The position numbers and the translations under genes are program-made. Positions 9,882 to 51,636 of a stretch of DNA of 64,000 nucleotides are shown piece by piece. Location of the stretch: positions 770,546 through 834,545 of the forward strand of contig QCWE01000001.1 in assembly GCA_003149555.1 (NCBI GenBank), read 5' to 3'. How positions within the stretch are numbered: the first letter of the stretch is position 1; each line of letters opens with the position of its first letter. The notes beneath the pieces were generated by a model. The model did no database searches and was not told the DNA's origin. It saw nothing but the letters and a program-made list of their open reading frames with translations. The stretch is from Candidatus Aquiluna sp. XM-24bin5 (GTDB taxonomy: Bacteria > Actinomycetota > Actinomycetia > Actinomycetales > Microbacteriaceae).

Positions 9882-11241
9882 TTAGGGGCCTTTCCTTTGG
9901 TAATTCATAGTGCCTTCTTGTGACCCTGAGGGCAAGCGCGGACGCGATCACCACAGGGCCCAAGCGGCCGACGAACATCAGTATCGATAGCCAGAGCTTC
10001 GCAAAGTCTGGAAGATCAGGGGTTATCCCAGTTGAAAGTCCAACAGTTGCAGCCGCCGAGATCACATCGAACAGCAACTCGTCGAGGCTGAAGTCAGTTG
10101 TGGCTGCAAGGAACATGGTGCTGAAGATGATCAGCATGGCGTAGAGGGAAACCAGAGTCAGCGCCTGGCGCTGAATTGACCTCGGTAGCCTGCGGTTACC
10201 GACATTCACCGCGGTTTCTCCGCGAACCTCGGTGTAGATGATGAAGAACAGGATGGCGATGGTCGTCACCTTGATTCCTCCTGCTGTCGAGGCACTTCCT
10301 CCACCGATAAACATCATGAAATCAAGTCCCAGCCAGGTGGCGGGGTCCATATCCCCAACTTCAACGCTGCTAAATCCTCCAGAGCGAGGCATCGCAGACA
10401 TAAAGGCCGCGTTCCACAGCTTCTCCAAAATGTTCATGCCGCCCAGAGTCTTTGGGTTGTTCCACTCCATCACACCGATGAACATCGAACCAAGGGTCAA
10501 GAGCACAACCGTGGCGGCAAGGGTCACCCTGGTGTGAAGGGAGAAGCGCTTCGGCTTCCCATTCTGCTGTTTGTTCAGCCCCCAGATGCGCTCGTGCAGT
10601 TCAATCAAGACCGGAAAGCCGAGGCCACCGACAACCACCGCAACCGCAACTGGGGCAACTACAAAGAGATCCTGGGAGAAAGAGGCCATGCTGTCCGAAT
10701 ACAGCGAGAACCCGCCGTTATTGAAAGCGGATACTGCGTGGAAGAAGCCGTTCCAAATGGCATCTCCCATGGACTCCTCATAGGTGATTCGCAGCCTGGC
10801 AATCAAGTAGATCGCTAGCGCAACCTCGAAACCAAAGTAAACAAGCAGGATGGTACGAAGTAGGGCTGGAACATTATCAATGCCGACGATCTTTGCCTCA
10901 GACAGAGTGTTCAGGCGATCGCGCAGCGAGATGCGACCAGAGATCAAAAGCCCCACGAGCGTCGCAAACGAAACGATTCCTAGGCCACCGAGCTGAATCA
11001 AAAACAGGATCACGACCTGGCCAAAACCAGACCAGTGAGTGCCGGTGTCAACAACGGTTAGCCCCGTGATGCAGACCGCGGACACGGCGGTAAAAAGCGC
11101 TGTTACGAAGTCGGTGGAGTTTCCAGGGGCGGTCGAGAAAGGAAACAGCAGGAAGATGGTGCCAGCCACTACCGCTGCACCGAATGCCATGACCACTATC
11201 TGGGTCGGGTGCAGGGTCTTCTTGCGACCGTCTTGGCTCAC
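9874..11241 (-). CDS. ktrB: Potassium uptake transmembrane subunit (TrkH/KtrB family)
   Basis: Ion-conducting subunit of a Na+- or H+-linked potassium transporter, 455 aa, with eight or more membrane helices. Selectivity-filter-like turns are visible in the four repeated M1-P-M2 units: SAVCITGLTVVD, HAVSAFNNGGFS, FMSAMPRSGGFSS and SAAATVGLSTG. The GTG start at 11241 gives a short polar N-terminus before the first helix. It is first in an operon with ktrA and a DUF1801 gene. It is divergent from the DCC protein gene. Confidence 0.93.
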   Translation of the reverse strand: MSQDGRKKTLHPTQIVVMAFGAAVVAGTIFLLFPFSTAPGNSTDFVTALFTAVSAVCITGLTVVDTGTHWSGFGQVVILFLIQLGGLGIVSFATLVGLLISGRISLRDRLNTLSEAKIVGIDNVPALLRTILLVYFGFEVALAIYLIARLRITYEESMGDAIWNGFFHAVSAFNNGGFSLYSDSMASFSQDLFVVAPVAVAVVVGGLGFPVLIELHERIWGLNKQQNGKPKRFSLHTRVTLAATVVLLTLGSMFIGVMEWNNPKTLGGMNILEKLWNAAFMSAMPRSGGFSSVEVGDMDPATWLGLDFMMFIGGGSASTAGGIKVTTIAILFFIIYTEVRGETAVNVGNRRLPRSIQRQALTLVSLYAMLIIFSTMFLAATTDFSLDELLFDVISAAATVGLSTGITPDLPDFAKLWLSILMFVGRLGPVVIASALALRVTRRHYELPKERPLIG

Positions 11242-11316
11242 TATTTCAGACTACGCCTCCACTGCCCTGAAATTGGGCAACCTCCCCACGATACACCCGA
11301 GTTAGGCTTGTAAACA

Positions 11317-11676
11317 ATGGATACACGGCTCTTTATCTTCGACGGCGACTGCGCGTTCTGCTCTTCAGCAGCTCGCACCTTCCGGAAGATGATCAAGGAG
11401 AGGGTTCCCATTCGTCCCTACCAAAAGCTGGATCTTCCCTCCCTGGGACTTAGCGAAGAGCTCACCTCGAGGGCCGTTTACTACGTGCGTGACGGTAAGT
11501 ATTTCGTGGCTGCAGAGGCCATTGCCCAGCTCTTCATTGACTCCAAGACCGTATGGGCTATCGCCGGAGTGCTCCTAAGAATCCCCGGGATTAACTTCCT
11601 GGCAGAGCGTGTGTACTACTGGATTGCGAAGAATCGCCACCGCCTTCCAGGTGGCACTCCCGAGTGCTCAATGTAA
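11317..11676 (+). CDS. DCC-family thiol-disulfide oxidoreductase-like protein (DUF393)
   Basis: Small thioredoxin-like protein, 119 aa, with the N-terminal signature FDGDCAFCSS that defines the DCC family. The C-terminal half contains a hydrophobic helix (VWAIAGVLLRIPGINFLAERVYYWIA) usual for this group. The function is not established beyond probable redox chemistry. It is transcribed alone; sucrose phosphorylase follows after 80 bases that carry an operator. Confidence 0.85.
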   Translation: MDTRLFIFDGDCAFCSSAARTFRKMIKERVPIRPYQKLDLPSLGLSEELTSRAVYYVRDGKYFVAAEAIAQLFIDSKTVWAIAGVLLRIPGINFLAERVYYWIAKNRHRLPGGTPECSM

Positions 11677-11730
11677 TTCGTGCTCACGCGCCTACCTGGA
11701 GGGCAAAATCACTAGAGTTATGCCTAGTTT

Positions 11731-11744
11731 TGTAAACGATTACA
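11731..11744. promoter_or_regulatory. LacI-family operator upstream of sucrose phosphorylase
   Basis: TGTAAACGATTACA is a near-perfect CG-centred dyad (TGTAA...TTACA arms), the form bound by LacI/GalR-family repressors. It ends 12 bases before the GTG start of the sucrose phosphorylase gene, so a bound repressor would block transcription or the leader. No LacI-type gene lies in the window. Confidence 0.65.
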
Positions 11745-11756
11745 TACAGGCAGGTA

Positions 11757-13229
11757 GTGAATTTGGCTGGCGCAAGCATCCTCGTCTATGCGGAGAGGCT
11801 CGGTGGCTCGCTTGAGCACATCGAGAAGCTACTTTCCAGCCAACTCGCAGACTTTTCGGGCGTCCACGTGCTGCCGTTTTTCCACCCCTACGATGGCGAC
11901 GATGCGGGCTTTGATCCAATTGATCACACCATCGTGGACCCCAGGCTCGGCACCTGGGAAGACTTCCAAAGAATTGCCGCCACCCACGAGCTAACCGCCG
12001 ACCTGATTATTAATCACGCCTCAAACCTCAGCCCAGAGTTTTTGGACTGGCAGGAAAAGGGTGAGAAGAGTGAATACGCCGGAATGTTCCTCACCTTCGA
12101 CACCGTATTCCCCGAAGGCGGCACCGAGGAAACAATCACAAGTTTTTATAGGCCCAGACCTGGACTGCCATTCACCGCATACAACGTTGCCGGCAAGAGA
12201 AGGCTCGTCTGGACAAGCTTCATGCCGTCACAGGTGGACATCGATGTCCGCCACCCAGCCGGCGAGGCATACATCGACAGGGTCTTGGATGCGTTGCAGT
12301 CCGGTGGCGTAAAAGTAGTTCGGTTGGATGCCGTCGGTTATGCAATCAAGACCCCTGGCACAGATTCATTTATGACTTCCGAGACCCTCGAGTACGTAGC
12401 AGAGCTAACTGAGAAAATTCGAGCTCGAGGCATGCGGGTTCTGGTTGAGGTGCACGCTCACTACACCCAGCAGCTGGAGATTGCACCGCTTGTGGATCTC
12501 ATTTACGACTTCCAGACAGCACCGCTCCTGCTCCACTCACTATTCACCTCAAACGTCGATGCTCTTGCCAGGTGGTTTGAGCTCAGACCAGCAAACTGCC
12601 TAAACGTGCTCGACACCCACGATGGCTATGGCGTCATCGACGCAGGCCCCATTGGTGGCAGAGACGGGCTAATCAGCCAAGCTGACATGGCCCATATCTT
12701 TGAGGTAGCGGCAAAGAACACCGGTGGCCACTCCGCGAAAGCTTCGGTGGTTCCTCAGTGGTTCGACCTTCCGCACCAGATCAACGCAACCCTGCCAGCA
12801 ATCATTGCCGACGACAGCGCCTACGTCCTAGCCCGCGCTGTGCAGTTCCTGCTCCCTGGTGAGCCTCAGGTCTACTACGTAGGGCTGTTGAACGGCATGG
12901 ACGACAAGGCTCTCTTCGCAGAAACTGGCAACGGCCGGGATGTAAACCGCCACAACTACACCCCTGAAGAAATTCAGAATTCGCTTAGCTCAGATGTCAC
13001 GAAAGCCATCCTTGGCTTGGCCCGCTTGAGAAAACATGAGGTCTTTGGTGGCAGTTTTGAATTCAAGCAGCTCAGCTCCAACTCAATGAGCCTCAACTGG
13101 ACAAACGAGAACTATGCGCTCACTCTCGAGTTCAGCTTCACGGGTGGAAAGAGTTCGTTCGAGCTGAGACTCGTTGAAGGTAGTCAAGAGCGAGTTTTCA
13201 ACTCGATAGCTGATCTAGCAAACCTTTAG
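11757..13229 (+). CDS. Sucrose phosphorylase-like glycoside hydrolase (GH13_18)
   Basis: Probably splits sucrose with phosphate into glucose-1-phosphate and fructose, saving one ATP. The 490-aa protein is close to family length. Seen: the early LPFFHPYDGDDAGFDPIDH segment, catalytic nucleophile Asp in VVRLDAVGYAIK, acid/base Glu in VLVEVHAH, third carboxylate in NVLDTHDGYG, and the VYYVGLLNGMDD segment characteristic of sucrose phosphorylases. The start is GTG at 11757. The LacI-type operator just upstream suggests sugar induction. A closely related specificity (sucrose-6-phosphate or glucosylglycerate phosphorylase) cannot be excluded. Its stop overlaps the next convergent gene's stop (TTAG). 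Confidence 0.87.
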   Translation: MNLAGASILVYAERLGGSLEHIEKLLSSQLADFSGVHVLPFFHPYDGDDAGFDPIDHTIVDPRLGTWEDFQRIAATHELTADLIINHASNLSPEFLDWQEKGEKSEYAGMFLTFDTVFPEGGTEETITSFYRPRPGLPFTAYNVAGKRRLVWTSFMPSQVDIDVRHPAGEAYIDRVLDALQSGGVKVVRLDAVGYAIKTPGTDSFMTSETLEYVAELTEKIRARGMRVLVEVHAHYTQQLEIAPLVDLIYDFQTAPLLLHSLFTSNVDALARWFELRPANCLNVLDTHDGYGVIDAGPIGGRDGLISQADMAHIFEVAAKNTGGHSAKASVVPQWFDLPHQINATLPAIIADDSAYVLARAVQFLLPGEPQVYYVGLLNGMDDKALFAETGNGRDVNRHNYTPEEIQNSLSSDVTKAILGLARLRKHEVFGGSFEFKQLSSNSMSLNWTNENYALTLEFSFTGGKSSFELRLVEGSQERVFNSIADLANL

Positions 13230-19446: not shown

Positions 19447-19519
19447 AGCCACCTGCCAGAATCGAACTGGCGACCTGCTCTTTACGAGGGAGCTGCTCTA
19501 CCGACTGAGCTAAGGTGGC
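19447..19519 (-). tRNA. tRNA-Thr (anticodon CGT)
   Basis: A complete cloverleaf on the minus strand. The acceptor GCCACC at the 5' end pairs with GGTGGC at the 3' end. TAGCTCAGTCGGTAGAGCA forms the D-arm, the anticodon loop is CTCGTAA, and GTTCGATTC lies in the T-arm. CCA is not encoded. One C-A mismatch appears at the loop-side end of the anticodon stem. Its 3' half is duplicated 475 bases downstream. Confidence 0.95.
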
Positions 19520-41373: not shown

Positions 41374-41449
41374 TTGTGCCTCCTCCTTCAAGCTAGCAGC
41401 TAGATACTGCACACTGTCTCAAAAAAGACTTACGGTTGGCTGAAAATTA

Positions 41450-41540
41450 GGGACCCCTCGCGCACCCGTCAGAGCTTCGCTACCCTTGCTATCTTTCGAT
41501 CCTGGGGGATTCACCAAGGTGACGCCACGCGAGGAGTCAC
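41450..41540 (-). ncRNA. ffs: Signal recognition particle RNA (small bacterial type, 4.5S-like)
   Basis: On the minus strand the segment gives CCCCAGGATCGAAAGATAGC then AAGGGTAGCG and CGGGTGCGCGAGGGG, the conserved domain IV core (CAGG, GNRA-type loop, AGCA) with flanking stems. The ends pair as GACTCCTCGCG with CGCGAGGGGTC. The loop is GAAA where GGAA is usual. A likely -10 box TAGAAT lies at 41546-41551, overlapping the gap after mmsA. Boundaries are approximate to a few bases. Position ahead of the dnaX block is normal for actinobacteria. Confidence 0.85.
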
Positions 41541-41558
41541 CAACGATTCTATTGCCGA

Positions 41559-43696: not shown

Positions 43697-43784
43697 GGAG
43701 AATTCGCCTAGTGGCCTATGGCGCACGCTTGGAAAGCGTGTTGGGTGCAAGCCCTCGGGGGTTCGAATCCCCCATTCTCCGCCA
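43697..43784 (+). tRNA. tRNA-Ser (anticodon GGA), CCA encoded
   Basis: Acceptor GGAGAAT pairs with ATTCTCC, followed by discriminator G and an encoded CCA. The anticodon loop is TTGGAAA (GGA) between CACGC and GCGTG, and the variable arm TTGGGTGCAAGCCCTC is long, as expected for serine. GGTTCGAATCC lies in the T-arm. Confidence 0.96.
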
Positions 43785-44947: not shown

Positions 44948-46345
44948 CTACAGCGACTTCAGGATGTCTCCGACCTTCTCCTTGGCATCACCGAAGAGCA
45001 TCTTGGTGTTTGCCTTGTAGAAGAGCGGGTTTGCAACACCTGCATAACCGGACGCCATCGAGCGCTTGAAGACGATCACATTCTCAGCCTCCCAGACCTT
45101 GAGAACGGGCATGCCGGCAATCGGGCTTCCGGGGTTCTCAGCAGCTGCAGGATTCACTGTGTCATTGGCTCCGATAACCAGTACCACCTGGGTCTCTGGG
45201 AAGTCATCGTTGATCTCGTCCATCTCCAAGACAATGTCGTAAGGGACCTTGGCCTCGGCCAGCAGCACGTTCATGTGACCGGGGAGCCTTCCGGCAACCG
45301 GGTGAATGCCAAAGCGAACCTCGACACCCTTTTCCTTAAGTCTCTTAGCCAGCTCTGCAACCGGGTACTGTGCCTGGGCAACGGCCATGCCGTATCCGGG
45401 AGTAATGACAACGCTCTTAGCGCTAGAGAGCAGCTCGGCAACCTGAGCGGCATCGATCTCAGTGTGCTCTCCGGTCTCCTCTTCGCCCTCAGTTGGAGCT
45501 TCGATGCCGTAGCCTCCGAAAATCACCGAGATAAACGAGCGGTTCATCGCGCGGCACATGATGTAAGACAGGTAAGCACCCGAGGAACCAACCAGGGCGC
45601 CGGTAACAATGAGCAGATCGTTACTCAGCAGGAAGCCTGTGGCCGCAGCTGCCCAACCCGAGTAGCTGTTTAGCATTGACACCACTACCGGCATATCTCC
45701 ACCACCGATGGAGGCAACCAGGTGCCAACCAAGTGCCAACGCCAAGATGGTGACCGAAATCAACAGCCCCATGGCAGGGGTGATTACATACGCAACAGTG
45801 AGGCCGATAAAGCCAACCAAAGCTGAGAGATTCAGCATGTTTCTTCCGGGAAGAATCAGCGGCTTCGACGATATCTTGGCCGAGAGCTTTAGGTAGGCGA
45901 CGATCGAGCCGGTGAAGGTCACAGCACCAATAAAGATGCCTATGAATACCTCAGCTCTGTGAACTCCTACAAGCTCCGGAGCAAGGTCTCCGGAGTGGAG
46001 AGCCCCATTCCAGCCCACCAGAACCGCAGTGAGACCAACGAAGCTGTGGAAAAGTGCGATTAGTTCTGGCATGCCCGTCATGGCAACGACCTTGGCCCGC
46101 CAGAGTCCGATTACAGCTCCTGCACCAAGCGCCACTAGCAAAAGCACGAAGCCGGTAGAGGTAGCTTCGTTCCACTCTCCCGCGAAGGTAAGCCAGATGG
46201 TCGCCGACATCGCAATCGTCATTCCCGCGATGCCGTAGCGAATACCGGTCCTACCGGTCTCATGCTTGCTGAGGCCGGCAAGGCTCATGATGAACAGCAG
46301 GGCTGCCGCAACGTAAGCGGCGTTAGCAACGGCTAGAGCAGTCAT
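44948..46345 (-). CDS. pntB: NAD(P) transhydrogenase subunit beta
   Basis: Proton-translocating transhydrogenase, 465 aa. The N-terminal two thirds is membrane-embedded; the C-terminal NADP(H)-binding domain III starts near [21 protein letters not shown] and has [23 protein letters not shown], then [17 protein letters not shown] at 46345 overlaps the pntA stop (TAATG). With PntA it exchanges reducing equivalents between NADH and NADPH at the expense of the proton gradient. Confidence 0.96.
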
Positions 46346-47880
46346 TACTGGTCTCCCTTCGTGAACATCTTGAGCATTCGACGGGTGACGGCAAAGCCAC
46401 CAAAGACGTTGATGCTCGCGATCATCACCCCGATGAAGGCAAGAATTTGAACCAGCAGTATCGAGTCGGTGAGCTGCAGAATCGCAGCAACCACCACGAT
46501 GCCTGAAATCGCATTAGTAACACTCATCAAAGGGGTGTGGAGAGCGTGATGGACCTTACCGATCACGTAGAACCCAACCACCACCGAGAGCGTGAGCACC
46601 AGGAAGTGCTGCGGCAATGGCGGTGGAGCGAGCGCCACCACACCAAACAGCGCAGCCAGTCCTGCGGCGATTAGCCCGCCCTTAGTGCGCGCTGACATCT
46701 TCTTTTTCTCCGGCATTTCCTGAGGCTCGGCAGGTGCCTGAACCGGAGCTGCTGAGACTTGCACCGGAGGTGGAGGCCAGGTGATCTCGCCGCTCTTCAC
46801 AACAGTCACTGCCCGCTGCACGACATCCTCAAAGTCCAGCTCGAGCTTGCCCTTCTTCTTTGGAGTTAGAAGCTTGAGAAGGTTCACAAGGTTCGTGCCA
46901 TAGAGCTGGGATGACTGAGCTGGCAGGCGAGATGGCAGGTCGGTGTAGCCGAGAATGATGACGCCGTTCTTAGTAACAATGCGCTTTCCCGCTACCGAAC
47001 CTGCGACATTTCCGCCCTGCGCCGCAGCCATGTCAACAATCACGCTGCCCGGCTTCATCAGCGAGACATCCTTGGCAGTAATCAACTTTGGAGCCGGCTT
47101 GCCCGGAATCAAGGCGGTCGTAATGATGATGTCGACGTCCTTAGCCTGCTCCGTGTAGATCTCAGCAGCGCGCTTGTCGTAAGCCTTGCTGGTCTGCTTG
47201 GCATAGCCGTCGGAGGACTCCATCTGCTCTTCAATTTCAACCGGCAGATACTCGCCACCAATGGACTTGACCTGATCCGCGACCTCTGGACGTGGGTCTG
47301 TGGCCCTAACAATTGCTCCGAGACTCGATGCCGCACCAATGGCTGCCAGTCCGGCAACTCCGGCCCCGGCGACCAGAACCTTGGCTGGGGCAACCTTGCC
47401 CGCCGCCGTTACCTGGCCAGTGAAGAATCGTCCAAACTCATGAGCTGACTCAACAACTGCTCGGTAACCGGCAATGTTTGCCATTGAGCTCAGCACGTCC
47501 ATGGACTGGGCTCTGGAGATTCTTGGAACCGCGTCCATAGCTAGCGCGGTGACTCCCTGCTTGGCAAGGTTCTTCAGAAGATTGGGGTTGAGGGCCGGGC
47601 TGAGTATGCCAACCAGAATTGCGCCCTTCTTGAGGCGCTTTATCTCAGTGGGGGTCGGCGCATTGACCTTGAGGACAATGTCTGCCTTCCAGGTTGCGGC
47701 CATGGTGCCGACCTTGGCACCGGCTGCGACGTAGGCGCTGTCTGGGAAAGAGGCCTTCGCACCCGCACCCTTCTCAACTAAAACTTGGTAGCCAAGCGCT
47801 CTAATGGCTTTCACGGTCTCAGGGGTGGCACTAACCCTGGACTCCGCCTGCGGCTCTAAAACAACACCGATGGTAGACAC
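46345..47880 (-). CDS. pntA: NAD(P) transhydrogenase subunit alpha (full-length)
   Basis: 511 aa, combining the NAD-binding domain I ([17 protein letters not shown], the [22 protein letters not shown]ossmann loop, and [13 protein letters not shown]) and a C-terminal membrane part with about three helices, split from it by a Pro/Ala-rich linker ([20 protein letters not shown]). In some actinobacteria alpha is split into PntAA and PntAB; here it is one protein. GTG start at 47880. The longer intergenic stretch upstream (73 bases) is the likely promoter. Confidence 0.95.
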
Positions 47881-47953: not shown

Positions 47954-48232
47954 CTACTGCTGGTTCTGATCTCCGGACTTCCGCTTGGCAAAAAAGGCCT
48001 TCACCTTCGCCACAATACGCTCCAGGCCTTGCATGCCCTGCTGGTTTAGCTCCCTCGCCCACTTGATCTCAAGGGCGAGGATTGAGGTGCCAAAGAACAA
48101 AAACAGCAGCCCTGGCCCTGGCGTCACGAGCATCACTAGGCCCAATCCCACGAGGAAAAAGCCAACGACCATGACCAATACCCAGCGAACCGGGTGCGGG
48201 AGGTTGTTTAGAAATGTCTTTAGCTTTTCCAT
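47954..48232 (-). CDS. PGPGW-family small membrane protein
   Basis: A 92-aa protein with two hydrophobic segments around a TPGPGLLFLFFG core, the signature region of putative PGPGW membrane proteins. An amphipathic basic helix follows and the tail is KRKSGDQNQQ. Function unknown. It lies between heliorhodopsin and pntA on the same strand with gaps of about 95 and 73 bases. Confidence 0.8.
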   Translation of the reverse strand: MEKLKTFLNNLPHPVRWVLVMVVGFFLVGLGLVMLVTPGPGLLFLFFGTSILALEIKWARELNQQGMQGLERIVAKVKAFFAKRKSGDQNQQ

Positions 48233-48327
48233 ACTGCTCTTAGTCTGACTAGGCCTTGATTATGGCAGTGCCAGCTGAAACTCTGCTGACAACTTCACAA
48301 TTGTTCAGCTCGATTTCAACCAACTAC

Positions 48328-49134
48328 CTATGTGCTCGCAATCGCCGGGATGATCGCGCCCGAGAACACCTGCCACGCCAGCACCGACTTAGCAACCAGA
48401 CTCAAGGTGATATAGGTTGCCTCGCCGTAGAGGTAGTTCTTCCAAGGTCCAATCTTCTTGTATTGGAAGGCCTGGTTGAAGGCAAAGGTATTGAAGAACA
48501 AAAACAGCGCAACGATGATGCCGTAAACGAATCCTGGAATCTCGGCAGCACTCTCGCTGCCGGGCTGGATTGTGTAGACGATCAATATGAGCCACGGCAC
48601 GATGCCCGTGATTGAGCCCATGATGAAAGGCAGCCCTTGGCCATTTCCCGGCTCTTCATACTTCTCCTGCAGCGCACCAAAGAAAATCATCGAGGCGTTC
48701 ACTGCGAAGATCGCGGTCAAAGCGGCAAATCCCGAGACACCGGTTAGCTGCGCAATAAGCCAAATCATCACCGAGGACGAGAGCGAGTACTCAACCCAGC
48801 GGAAATAGTTGCGGTTGAGCTTCAGCCCGCCTTTGTACCTGGAGAAGAACCACGGCGATGAAATCAAGAAGTGGAAGAAGGCGGATAGCAGCAAGAAGCC
48901 AATTACGCCGGCACCAATGTTGATGTCAAAGAGCTCAACGCGCTCGGGCGGCAGCGGCACCCCGGGAGGGCCGGTCGGGTAATCAATGGTCACCGGGAAG
49001 AGAATCTGGCTATCCAGCAGCGTGAGCACAAAGCTTAGACCGGCAGCTTGGGCGAGGTGAAGGAATCCCGCTACAACGTTGTAGCCGCGAAGCCGTGCAA
49101 TGTATTCATCTTGGGTTCTTTGTTTCTTAGCCAA
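48328..49134 (-). CDS. Heliorhodopsin
   Basis: A 268-aa seven-helix retinal protein of the heliorhodopsin family. The Schiff-base Lys is Lys249 in LSLVAKSVLAW, and the presumed counterion is Glu115 in RWVEYSLSSSVMIWL; the first-helix His26 and second-helix His88 (FFHFL) match the conserved His pair of known heliorhodopsins. Other family stretches are NASMIFFGALQEKYE and PGFVYGII. The motifs rule out ordinary proton-pumping rhodopsin (no DTD/NDQ triad). The N-terminus is expected inside the cell. TTG start 49134 follows AAGGGGG. It is 68 bases downstream of glpX on the same strand. Its function in the cell is unresolved for the family; reports link some members to enzyme regulation. Confidence 0.96.
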   Translation of the reverse strand: MAKKQRTQDEYIARLRGYNVVAGFLHLAQAAGLSFVLTLLDSQILFPVTIDYPTGPPGVPLPPERVELFDINIGAGVIGFLLLSAFFHFLISSPWFFSRYKGGLKLNRNYFRWVEYSLSSSVMIWLIAQLTGVSGFAALTAIFAVNASMIFFGALQEKYEEPGNGQGLPFIMGSITGIVPWLILIVYTIQPGSESAAEIPGFVYGIIVALFLFFNTFAFNQAFQYKKIGPWKNYLYGEATYITLSLVAKSVLAWQVFSGAIIPAIAST

Positions 49135-49202
49135 CTTGGCCCCCTTAATTCTTTCTCAGGCTACGCCCTAATTCAAATAAGGGAAACAATCAATCAGCTG
49201 GG

Positions 49203-50171
49203 CTATAGCCACCTCGACGCTTGGTACTCGGCAAATACCTTGCGCACTGTTCCTGACTTACCTCGCACGACAATTGATTCGGCGAAGATTGTGGCGCCTC
49301 TCTTACGAACACCTGAGACAAGCGGCCCGTCGGTGACACCAGTCGCAACAAAGAATGTGTTGTCAGAGGCGACCATGTCTCGCATTTGATAAACATGGTC
49401 AAACTTGAGACCCGCTGCAGTTCCCCTCTCGCGCTCGGCCGCATCTGAAGGATGAAGAATCCCCTGCATCTGACCACCTAGCGCGCTTACCCCTGCTGCG
49501 GTAATCACGCCCTCAGGAGAGCCCCCGACACCCATCGCCATATCGATGCGCGACTCAGACCTGGCGGCCTGGATACCCGCGGCAACGTCCCCATCGCGCA
49601 ATAGCCTCGTTGCAGCTCCAGCACTTCGTACCTGCTCGATAACGTCCATGTTGTATTCGCGATCCAAAACCGCCACCAGCACTTCATCAGCCGACTTACC
49701 TGCACTCTTCGCATACTCGACGATGTTCTCTTTGATGCTCATCGAAATATCACAGACTCCAACTCCAGCGCTGCCCACCACAAGTTTGTTCATCTTGAAT
49801 ACTGACGAGGCGTCGAGCATGGTGCCTCTGTCCGAAACTGCAATAACAGAAATCGCGTTCATCCGACCGGCTGCAGTGAGTGAAGTACCATCGATTGGGT
49901 CGACTGCGATGTCAACCTTGGGACCATTACCAGTGCCAAGGATCTCGCCGTTGAACAGCATTGGGGCATTATCTTTTTCCCCTTCGCCAATGACTACCTT
50001 GCCCTCAAAGTGAACCGTCCCAAGAAATGCCCTCATGGCATCGACTGCCGCCCCATCGGCGCCATTTTTGTCACCGCGCCCAATAAAGGGAAATGACCTT
50101 ATTGCTGCGGCCTCTGTGGCCCTGACGAGCTCCATGGCAAGGTTTCTGTCTGGCTGGAAATCAAGGCTCAT
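49203..50171 (-). CDS. glpX: Class II fructose-1,6-bisphosphatase
   Basis: Gluconeogenic phosphatase, 322 aa. The GlpX family motifs VIGEGEKDNAPM, VDIAVDPIDGTSLTAAGRMNAISVI (metal and substrate Asp), VLDREYNMDVIEQVR and GVGGSPEGVITAAGV are present. ATG 50171. It is the only FBPase seen here and fits growth on acetate and amino acids. Its downstream neighbour on the strand is heliorhodopsin; it is divergent from aspA. Confidence 0.95.
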   Translation of the reverse strand: MSLDFQPDRNLAMELVRATEAAAIRSFPFIGRGDKNGADGAAVDAMRAFLGTVHFEGKVVIGEGEKDNAPMLFNGEILGTGNGPKVDIAVDPIDGTSLTAAGRMNAISVIAVSDRGTMLDASSVFKMNKLVVGSAGVGVCDISMSIKENIVEYAKSAGKSADEVLVAVLDREYNMDVIEQVRSAGAATRLLRDGDVAAGIQAARSESRIDMAMGVGGSPEGVITAAGVSALGGQMQGILHPSDAAERERGTAAGLKFDHVYQMRDMVASDNTFFVATGVTDGPLVSGVRKRGATIFAESIVVRGKSGTVRKVFAEYQASRWL

Positions 50172-50244: not shown

Positions 50245-51636
50245 ATGCGCATAGAGCACGACCTAATAGGTGATTACGAGCTCCCCGAATCTTCCCTCTG
50301 GGGCGTCCACACAGCACGTGCTGTTGACAACTTCCCAATCTCCGGTGTCCCCATCGGCCACTACCGCAACCTCATCAGGGCTCTGGGCCTTACAAAGGCA
50401 GCTGCTGCCAGAGTGAATGCGGCAATTGGTGGACTCGAAAAAGAAAAGGCACACTTCATCGAGCTTGCCTGCATGGAGGTGGCGGAGGGCAAGCTAGACA
50501 AATACTTTGTGGTCGATGCCATCCAGGGCGGTGCCGGGACCAGCACCAACATGAACGCGAATGAGGTAATCGCCAACAGGGCACTTGAGCTCATGGGTAA
50601 AGCCCCGGGCGACTATCAGCACATTCACCCACTCAACGACGTCAATCGATCTCAGTCAACTAATGACGTCTATCCGACGGCCTTAAGGCTTGCGCTGATA
50701 TTCGAGATAGAGCTCCTTGATCAATCGCTAACCGAGCTCAAAGAGTCTTACGAGCGCAAGGCAAAGGAGTTCTCGGACATCCTGAAGATGGCAAGGACTC
50801 AGCTCCAGGATGCTGTCCCCATCACACTCGGCCAGGAGTTTCAAGCATTTGCAGTTTCAACCTCTAAAGATATTGAGCGGCTCCATGAGCTACTGCCACT
50901 GCTTGCGGAGGTGAACCTAGGTGGTACTGCCGTCGGCACCGAGCTGAACACTCCCCGCGGCTACACCAAGAAAGTTGTCGCGGAGCTCAGCAAGCTGTCT
51001 GGGGTCAAGCTGACGTCCGCAAAGGATCTCGTAGAAGCCACGCAGTCTTCCGGTGTGCTGGTCACATTTAGCTCAGTCCTCAAGCGCATTGCTGTGAAGC
51101 AGTCAAAGATTGCTAGCGACCTCAGACTCCTCAGCTCCGGGCCAAGGGCAGGGCTAAACGAGATAAACCTCCCGGAAAAACAAGCTGGCTCTTCGATCAT
51201 GCCGGGGAAGGTTAATCCAGTTGTCCCCGAGGTCATAAACCAGATTGCCTTCACGGTGATTGGCAATGACCTTACTGTGACCATGGCTGCCGAGTCAGGC
51301 CAGCTCCAGCTCAACGCATTTGAGCCGATTATGGCCAGGTCAATCCTCATGAGCATCACCTACCTGCGAAACGGCTTTGCGACCTTCACCAAGAACTGCG
51401 TGGATGGCATCGAGCCGAATGTGGACCTACTCAAGTCGGCTGTAGAGAACTCAATTGGCCTTGTTACGGTCCTCAGCCCAAAGTTGGGTTATGAGAATGC
51501 CACCAAGGTTGCCCGCTATGCCAAGAAGAATGACTGCTCAGTTAGGCAGGCTGTCACGGAACTGACTCTCATGACAGAAGCCGAATTCGATGCCGCTCTC
51601 GGCGACCTCGTCTCGATCGCGAAGCGAGCTCAGTAA
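50245..51636 (+). CDS. aspA: Aspartate ammonia-lyase
   Basis: Fumarase/aspartase superfamily, 463 aa, cytosolic; deaminates L-aspartate to fumarate. Seen: GAGTSTNMNANEVIANRA, the NRSQSTNDVYPTA motif, TQLQDAVPITLGQEF and the flexible signature loop GSSIMPGKVNPVVPE. This combination matches aspartase or class II fumarase; the FVVDAIQGGAGTSTNMN stretch and N-terminal IEHDLIGDYELP fit aspartase best. ATG 50245. It meets the convergent aminotransferase with no spacer. Confidence 0.92.
   Translation: MRIEHDLIGDYELPESSLWGVHTARAVDNFPISGVPIGHYRNLIRALGLTKAAAARVNAAIGGLEKEKAHFIELACMEVAEGKLDKYFVVDAIQGGAGTSTNMNANEVIANRALELMGKAPGDYQHIHPLNDVNRSQSTNDVYPTALRLALIFEIELLDQSLTELKESYERKAKEFSDILKMARTQLQDAVPITLGQEFQAFAVSTSKDIERLHELLPLLAEVNLGGTAVGTELNTPRGYTKKVVAELSKLSGVKLTSAKDLVEATQSSGVLVTFSSVLKRIAVKQSKIASDLRLLSSGPRAGLNEINLPEKQAGSSIMPGKVNPVVPEVINQIAFTVIGNDLTVTMAAESGQLQLNAFEPIMARSILMSITYLRNGFATFTKNCVDGIEPNVDLLKSAVENSIGLVTVLSPKLGYENATKVARYAKKNDCSVRQAVTELTLMTEAEFDAALGDLVSIAKRAQ

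Follow-up and report, generated by a model that had tools for sequence, protein, structure and literature searches.

What heliorhodopsins do is still an open question, and their gene neighbours are the usual source of guesses. Here we ask what one such neighbourhood can tell us, starting from a 268-aa heliorhodopsin gene (HeR; 48328..49134, minus strand) in a 64,000-nucleotide stretch of DNA, called the window below. HeR is preceded, 68 bp upstream, by glpX, which encodes a class II fructose-1,6-bisphosphatase (49203..50171, minus strand; PF03320, TIGR00330), and is followed, 95 bp downstream, by the gene of a 92-aa putative transmembrane protein of the PGPGW family (47954..48232, minus strand; PF09656). 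After a further 73 bp come the NAD(P) transhydrogenase genes pntA (46345-47880, minus strand) and pntB (44948-46345, minus strand), matched by NCBIfam NF006942 and NF006974. Beyond glpX, an aspA-like gene of the aspartate ammonia-lyase family (50245..51636, plus strand; NF008909) is divergent from HeR. A previous sequence-only reading had described glpX upstream and PGPGW and pntAB downstream, correctly for the window according to the ORFs, Pfam and NCBIfam, and had proposed that HeR could be coupled to glpX and pntAB and thereby to redox and carbon balance. It had also placed HeR outside any photolyase or retinal gene context, and indeed a visual check of 68 non-overlapping ORFs, chosen by length across the window and read over their N-terminal 90 residues, revealed no photolyase, carotenoid, Blh or type-1 rhodopsin gene (9/68 were also run against Pfam and NCBIfam). 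The window further contains a small SRP RNA gene (41446-41541, minus strand) and two tRNA genes (19447-19519, minus strand; 43697-43781, plus strand).

The ORF at 48328-49134 is a genuine, ordinary heliorhodopsin of an Aquiluna-like actinobacterium. It starts with TTG after a Shine-Dalgarno-like AAGGGGG (49140..49146, minus strand), both read directly from the sequence, and its product matches Pfam PF18761 over profile positions 1-241 of 242 (305.7 bits, cut-off 26.7; E 2.6e-91) and the HeR equivalog NCBIfam NF038020 (329 bits, cut-off 100). The best solved-structure match, by phmmer, is 48C12 (6su3; E 3.2e-79). A protein search with the window HeR scored 7999 candidates and found 6585 relatives, the best among the 120 listed being 97% identical. 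At the locus level, we fetched the best 80 of 358 loci found; in the nearest of these, L001 (Microbacteriaceae) and L002, L003 and L067 (Aquiluna), the HeR protein is 97-98% identical to that of the window. The window protein thus belongs to a known kind of light-absorbing membrane protein and has close relatives that are already public, Aquiluna heliorhodopsins have been published before (PMC12422013), and the Luna-group origin proposed previously agrees with the nearest named relatives being Aquiluna. A scan of IMG/VR with the window HeR, covering close relatives only, found no viral copies.

The assignment to the 48C12 type, also made previously, is supported by the predicted fold. The AlphaFold2 model, built on a 48-sequence alignment (mean pLDDT 88.6, pTM 0.86), has helices A (8-39), B (73-92), C (110-130), D (136-159), E (168-189), F (201-226) and G (234-266), with a beta hairpin (45-52/64-72) joining A and B, and Foldseek placed it on 48C12 (6su4) with TM 0.88/0.93, an rmsd of 1.8 and 54% identity. 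Seven helices, the first two of them linked by a long loop of beta-strands, are what a heliorhodopsin should show. In the phmmer alignment, H26, H88, E115 and K249 of the window HeR align to H23, H80, E107 and K241 of 48C12, both histidines being important in the family. The two proteins share these key residues (PDB 6su3, 6su4, 6uh3), the window HeR having five extra residues between H26 in helix A and H88 in helix B. In the model E115 falls in helix C and K249 in helix G, where the counterion glutamate and the Schiff-base lysine of the family belong. Across the window and the 80 fetched loci, H26, H88 and E115 are identical in 81/81 sequences and K249 in 80/81; the remaining sequence, L073, stops at residue 211. 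The four residues thus stand where the previous reading had put them. We infer that the window HeR would bind retinal, by analogy with its family, and that it would have the inverted topology with a cytoplasmic N-terminus; the basic character of its N-terminus and F-G loop fits that topology and says nothing beyond it. Note that in 48C12, too, helix A is followed by a long loop of two beta-strands (PMC6951262), and that Glu107 of 48C12 is named in PMC9726877.

Some viral heliorhodopsins transport protons (PMC9448325), so a light-driven proton transporter has to be considered. In V2HeR3, the viral proton transporter, the hallmark is E191, together with W195, in helix F (PMC9448325). When these positions were mapped by hand via the retinal-flanking Phe of helix F, the window HeR was found to carry L210 and F214 instead, and residue 210 is L in 40/41 alignment rows of the window type and I in the remaining row. 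Since these residues occupy the hallmark sites, and since 48C12, 54% identical to the window HeR, is described as having no pumping or channel activity (PMC6951262), ion transport by the window HeR is unlikely, and we regard a proton transporter of the V2HeR3 kind as extremely improbable.

We then compared the neighbourhood with that of the relatives. Of the 80 fetched loci, L002 alone repeats the order glpX-HeR-PGPGW-pntAB, with an extra small gene after HeR, and the aspA-glpX-HeR arrangement is likewise confined to the window and L002. In L001, L003 and L067, HeR is directly divergent from aspA, at 86-109 bp and without glpX; in L005, aspA and HeR are 533 bp apart, also without glpX. Among the 57 loci with a HeR below 74% identity, glpX, pntA, PGPGW and aspA (at least 45% identity) were absent from the flanks covered, which extend 2, 5 and 9 kb on both sides in 46, 34 and 30 of them. 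As a separate observation, L002:10811-11176 and L067:10811-11176 encode a 121-aa hydrophobic protein starting 3 bp after HeR; the L067 copy has no Pfam match, and in the window, L001 and L003, no such gene separates HeR from PGPGW.

The same picture was obtained with 22 genomes of the genus of G002, here called Aquiluna because loci in several of them bear that name; their completeness is unstated, so absences of pntA, glpX or Blh are not proof. Window-type HeR is present in 20/22. Although 13 of these 20 have a clear glpX match, glpX adjoins HeR on the same strand in just one (G002, which contains L002). It lies 1.4 kb away on the opposite strand in G008 and G018, and in the other ten its distance from HeR exceeds 100 kb or the two genes are on separate contigs, with the limits that the G023 contig begins at HeR and that two G020 contigs could be neighbours. 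The glpX tree groups the window with L002 (100/99), and G001, whose HeR is 97% identical to that of the window, nevertheless has its glpX on another contig and only 78% identical. A role for glpX as a conserved HeR partner was rejected on these grounds. A pntA orthologue (79% or more) was found in 12/22 genomes, every one HeR-bearing, and not found (no match, or at most 38%) in 8/20 HeR-bearing and both HeR-free genomes, giving 12 genomes with both genes, 8 with HeR only, none with pntA only and 2 with neither. Eight of the 12 genomes having both HeR and pntA carry them on one strand and no more than 10 kb apart; in the remaining four the distance is 11.3 kb (G016) or about 47 kb (G021), or the genes are on different contigs (G010, G019). 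This proximity looks like shared local synteny, and the co-occurrence, counted in 22 related genomes of unstated completeness, leans towards an association without being convincing. In G009:C2, pntA and glpX are each split into two frames, as from an assembly error or real frameshifts.

The TAGNNT hexamer is a -10-like element of actinobacteria. In the window, TAGCCT lies 29 nt before the HeR start (49158..49163, minus strand), and a second promoter-like hexamer, CATAAT, precedes PGPGW (48259..48264, minus strand). TAGNNT occurs at -50..-15 of the HeR start in 23/24 sequences at least 74% identical, window included (3.1 expected from first-order Markov resampling; 79/81 sequences were countable), and in 3 and 0 of the same 24 in two stretches further upstream. 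In more distant sequences it occurs in 16/55 (2.2 expected), against 9 and 2 further upstream. The same test gave 11/15 for PGPGW, 1/12 for pntA, 1/16 for glpX, 0/5 for pntB, 3/6 for aspA, 1/8 for hemL and 4/6 for thrAld. The looser TANNNT was found before pntA at -85..-50 in 11/12 (4.0 expected for such a stretch) and before glpX at -50..-15 in 8/16 (4.8 expected). General scans of the region returned 2 consensus promoter sites, none before HeR, versus 1.6 in shuffles, and 2 terminators versus 2.4, and so carry no information on the promoters. From the sequence, HeR would be transcribed from its own promoter whatever gene lies upstream, an idea that the short motif fits and does not prove, and a single operon is not what the intergenic gaps and the hexamers upstream of HeR and PGPGW suggest.

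While its neighbours change, HeR itself barely does so among close relatives. Against L001, L002, L003 and L067, its 97-98% protein identity goes with only 83-84% DNA identity, and its pN/pS is 0.026-0.043, compared with 0.23-0.32 for PGPGW, 0.09-0.16 for aspA, 0.065-0.13 for pntA and 0.041-0.187 for hemL at the same four loci; because synonymous change is near saturation, these values serve for ranking only. For glpX, pN/pS is 0.098 against L002. Note that hemL matches HeR in constraint when compared with L002, L003 and L067 (0.041-0.044), and that the extreme constraint on HeR is limited to close relatives, since its pN/pS rises to 0.09-0.21 against the more distant L004, L005, L007, L009 and L012. 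L067 is a mosaic over 9901-13185: it is 95-99% identical to L003 across the aspA-HeR junction and HeR, and 94-100% identical to L002 over the pntA stretch, and its identity to the other locus of the pair falls towards each outer side. Recombination therefore reaches the HeR region within the genus, which would explain glpX coming and going beside an almost unchanged HeR. Since neighbours turn over within one genus while close HeRs barely change, one neighbourhood taken by itself says little about a partner.

These results bear directly on the idea that glpX, HeR, PGPGW and pntAB share a transcript and that HeR tunes fructose bisphosphatase or transhydrogenase in response to light. The genes do share a strand in the window and L002, HeR and pntA are close in most genomes having both, and pntA was found in neither of the HeR-free genomes. 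In addition, another heliorhodopsin binds and regulates a partner from its own operon (PMC9529153), and the surroundings of heliorhodopsin genes are enriched in redox proteins (PMC8612252). Against this stand the lack of glpX between aspA and HeR in L001, L003, L067 and L005, the eight HeR-bearing genomes in which pntA was not found, the 0/57 distant loci with glpX or pntA in the flanks covered (30/57 with 9 kb on both sides), the promoter-like hexamers before HeR, PGPGW and pntA, and the recombinant L067. No conserved same-strand partner in one unit, of the AbHeR kind, was seen, as the neighbours change within the genus. We consider this coupling very unlikely, and the locus as one operon was rejected on neighbour turnover and the promoter-like hexamers. 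With same-strand glpX adjacency in 1/20 genomes and no pntA orthologue in 8/20, the redox/carbon proposal is unsupported; the earlier reading had itself named a non-conserved neighbourhood as weakening it. Because the neighbours vary among relatives, glpX and pntAB give little reason to think that HeR controls them. In the literature searched, two papers contain both heliorhodopsin and transhydrogenase, but the main text of PMC7771536 lacks the latter word and PMC10092888 names heliorhodopsin only in its references; among the 15 papers listed of 651 matching glpX and bisphosphatase, none names heliorhodopsin.

The PGPGW gene is the most recurrent of the window's HeR neighbours, and HeR might instead work with this small membrane protein. 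It lies within 0.5 kb of HeR on the same strand in 10/80 fetched loci and the window, and in both orders: downstream of HeR in L001, L002, L003, L067, L006 and the window, upstream in L009, L010, L011, L013 and L073. By genome, it adjoins HeR in 9/20 HeR-bearing genomes, whose sequences are partly the same as the loci counted. L006 has one copy 0.2 kb downstream of HeR and a second 1.5 kb upstream. On the other hand, PGPGW is present in 22/22 genomes, including the two without HeR, is found in the flanks covered of 0/57 more distant loci, changes fast, as its pN/pS indicates, and has its own promoter-like hexamer in 11/15 loci. Moreover, because it lies about 8-12 kb from HeR in L012, G007, G010 and G016, the adjacency may be shared local synteny. 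A partnership with the recurring PGPGW protein is therefore unlikely in our view, and slightly more doubtful still is the specific proposal that, in Aquiluna, HeR works with this uncharacterised protein adjoining it in both orders. If true, it would give heliorhodopsins a membrane partner that is new relative to the literature searched, where no paper naming both heliorhodopsin and PGPGW was found.

Where would the retinal come from? Type-1 rhodopsin is present in 19/22 genomes of the genus. The BCD/Blh family PF15461 is over cut-off in 6/22 genomes, of which 4 belong to the 20 HeR-bearing ones and none to G001-G006, the nearest relatives of the window; three more genomes have matches below the cut-off. 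Since no Blh over cut-off was found in G001-G006, the organism's retinal is probably external, and uptake would follow. The same observation could suggest that HeR is made without retinal in nature, having a light-independent role or decaying. The checked pocket residues are kept, non-synonymous change among close relatives is low, and type-1 rhodopsins of some organisms without blh can load exogenous retinal (PMC12422013); we hold a retinal-free HeR to be highly improbable. That study, which covers Aquiluna and Rhodoluna (Luna-1 subcluster) heliorhodopsins of the same lineage as the window HeR, reports that HeR occurs in 96% of saltwater Aquiluna genomes and that, in Aquiluna as a whole, 22% of the genomes have blh and 12 genomes a second HeR copy (PMC12422013). 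Its main text mentions glpX and transhydrogenase 0 times, and the window neighbourhood is absent from the discussion there.

Other heliorhodopsin contexts were also observed. A second heliorhodopsin, 38-40% identical, occurs in 9/22 genomes (L081-L089, from G002, G003, G009, G011, G022, G010, G023, G019 and G021). Within about 5 kb of it lie genes of the PdtaS-like histidine kinase (5/9), WhiB (4/9) and haem peroxidase (3/9) sequence clusters, and AhpC/TSA-cluster genes also recur nearby, one member of each cluster having been tested with Pfam; these neighbours agree with contexts described in PMC8612252. A membrane protein of about 270-300 aa is convergent with the second heliorhodopsin (L083:6004-6807, L084:3996-4892, L085:5858-6727, L087:4201-5070). 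A TspO-like identity for it was rejected, as the four copies match no Pfam family over cut-off, and no paper naming both heliorhodopsin and TspO was found in the literature searched. Among the fetched loci, L030, L033, L042, L048 and L053 have a gene of one sequence cluster directly upstream of HeR, in the same orientation and with 11 bp between the two; the copy tested, from L030, is of the alpha-amylase family, so that the arrangement is operon-like with a sugar enzyme. Finally, a small membrane protein is encoded 6-9 bp downstream of HeR in L017 (L017:3704-4117), L034 and L040; the L017 protein has a DoxX match below the Pfam cut-off and is possibly, with the other two, the COG4270 neighbour of PMC8612252.

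Taken together, we consider it likely that the window HeR is a standard retinal photosensor or regulator with its own promoter, changing neighbours, a partner encoded elsewhere and external retinal. By analogy with the family, it is most likely a light sensor or light-dependent regulator and not a pump. All-trans retinal would be bound through K249, with E115 as counterion; light would isomerise it, and a slow conformational change would be passed to the cytoplasmic side. The lit state might then be read by a partner encoded elsewhere, as in the heliorhodopsins that bind glutamine synthetase or an ABC transporter. That partner is not given away by the adjoining genes.

A sensory or regulatory role is discussed for heliorhodopsins in PMC9529153, PMC11109279 and PMC8612252, and in Aurantimicrobium photophilum, a relative for which genome editing is reported (PMC11577799), the heR transcripts rise in the dark (PMC8591293). 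AbHeR, which binds glutamine synthetase (PMC9529153), and OcHeR, which binds an ABC transporter (PMC11109279), are actinobacterial like the window HeR, and basic residues facing the cytoplasm are important for their binding; in AbHeR, K216, K217 and K220 are needed (PMC9529153). The window HeR has K226, K227 and K232 between helices F and G, in putative correspondence to these lysines, and in the 41 alignment rows of the window type, position 226 is K, R or H in 41/41, while 227 is K or R in 19 and 232 in 26. The ten neighbour groups listed in PMC11109279 include neither glpX nor PGPGW nor pnt. AbHeR is encoded in one operon with its partner (PMC9529153), unlike the window HeR with its changing neighbours, and the present locus points attention to partners encoded elsewhere, or at most to PGPGW.
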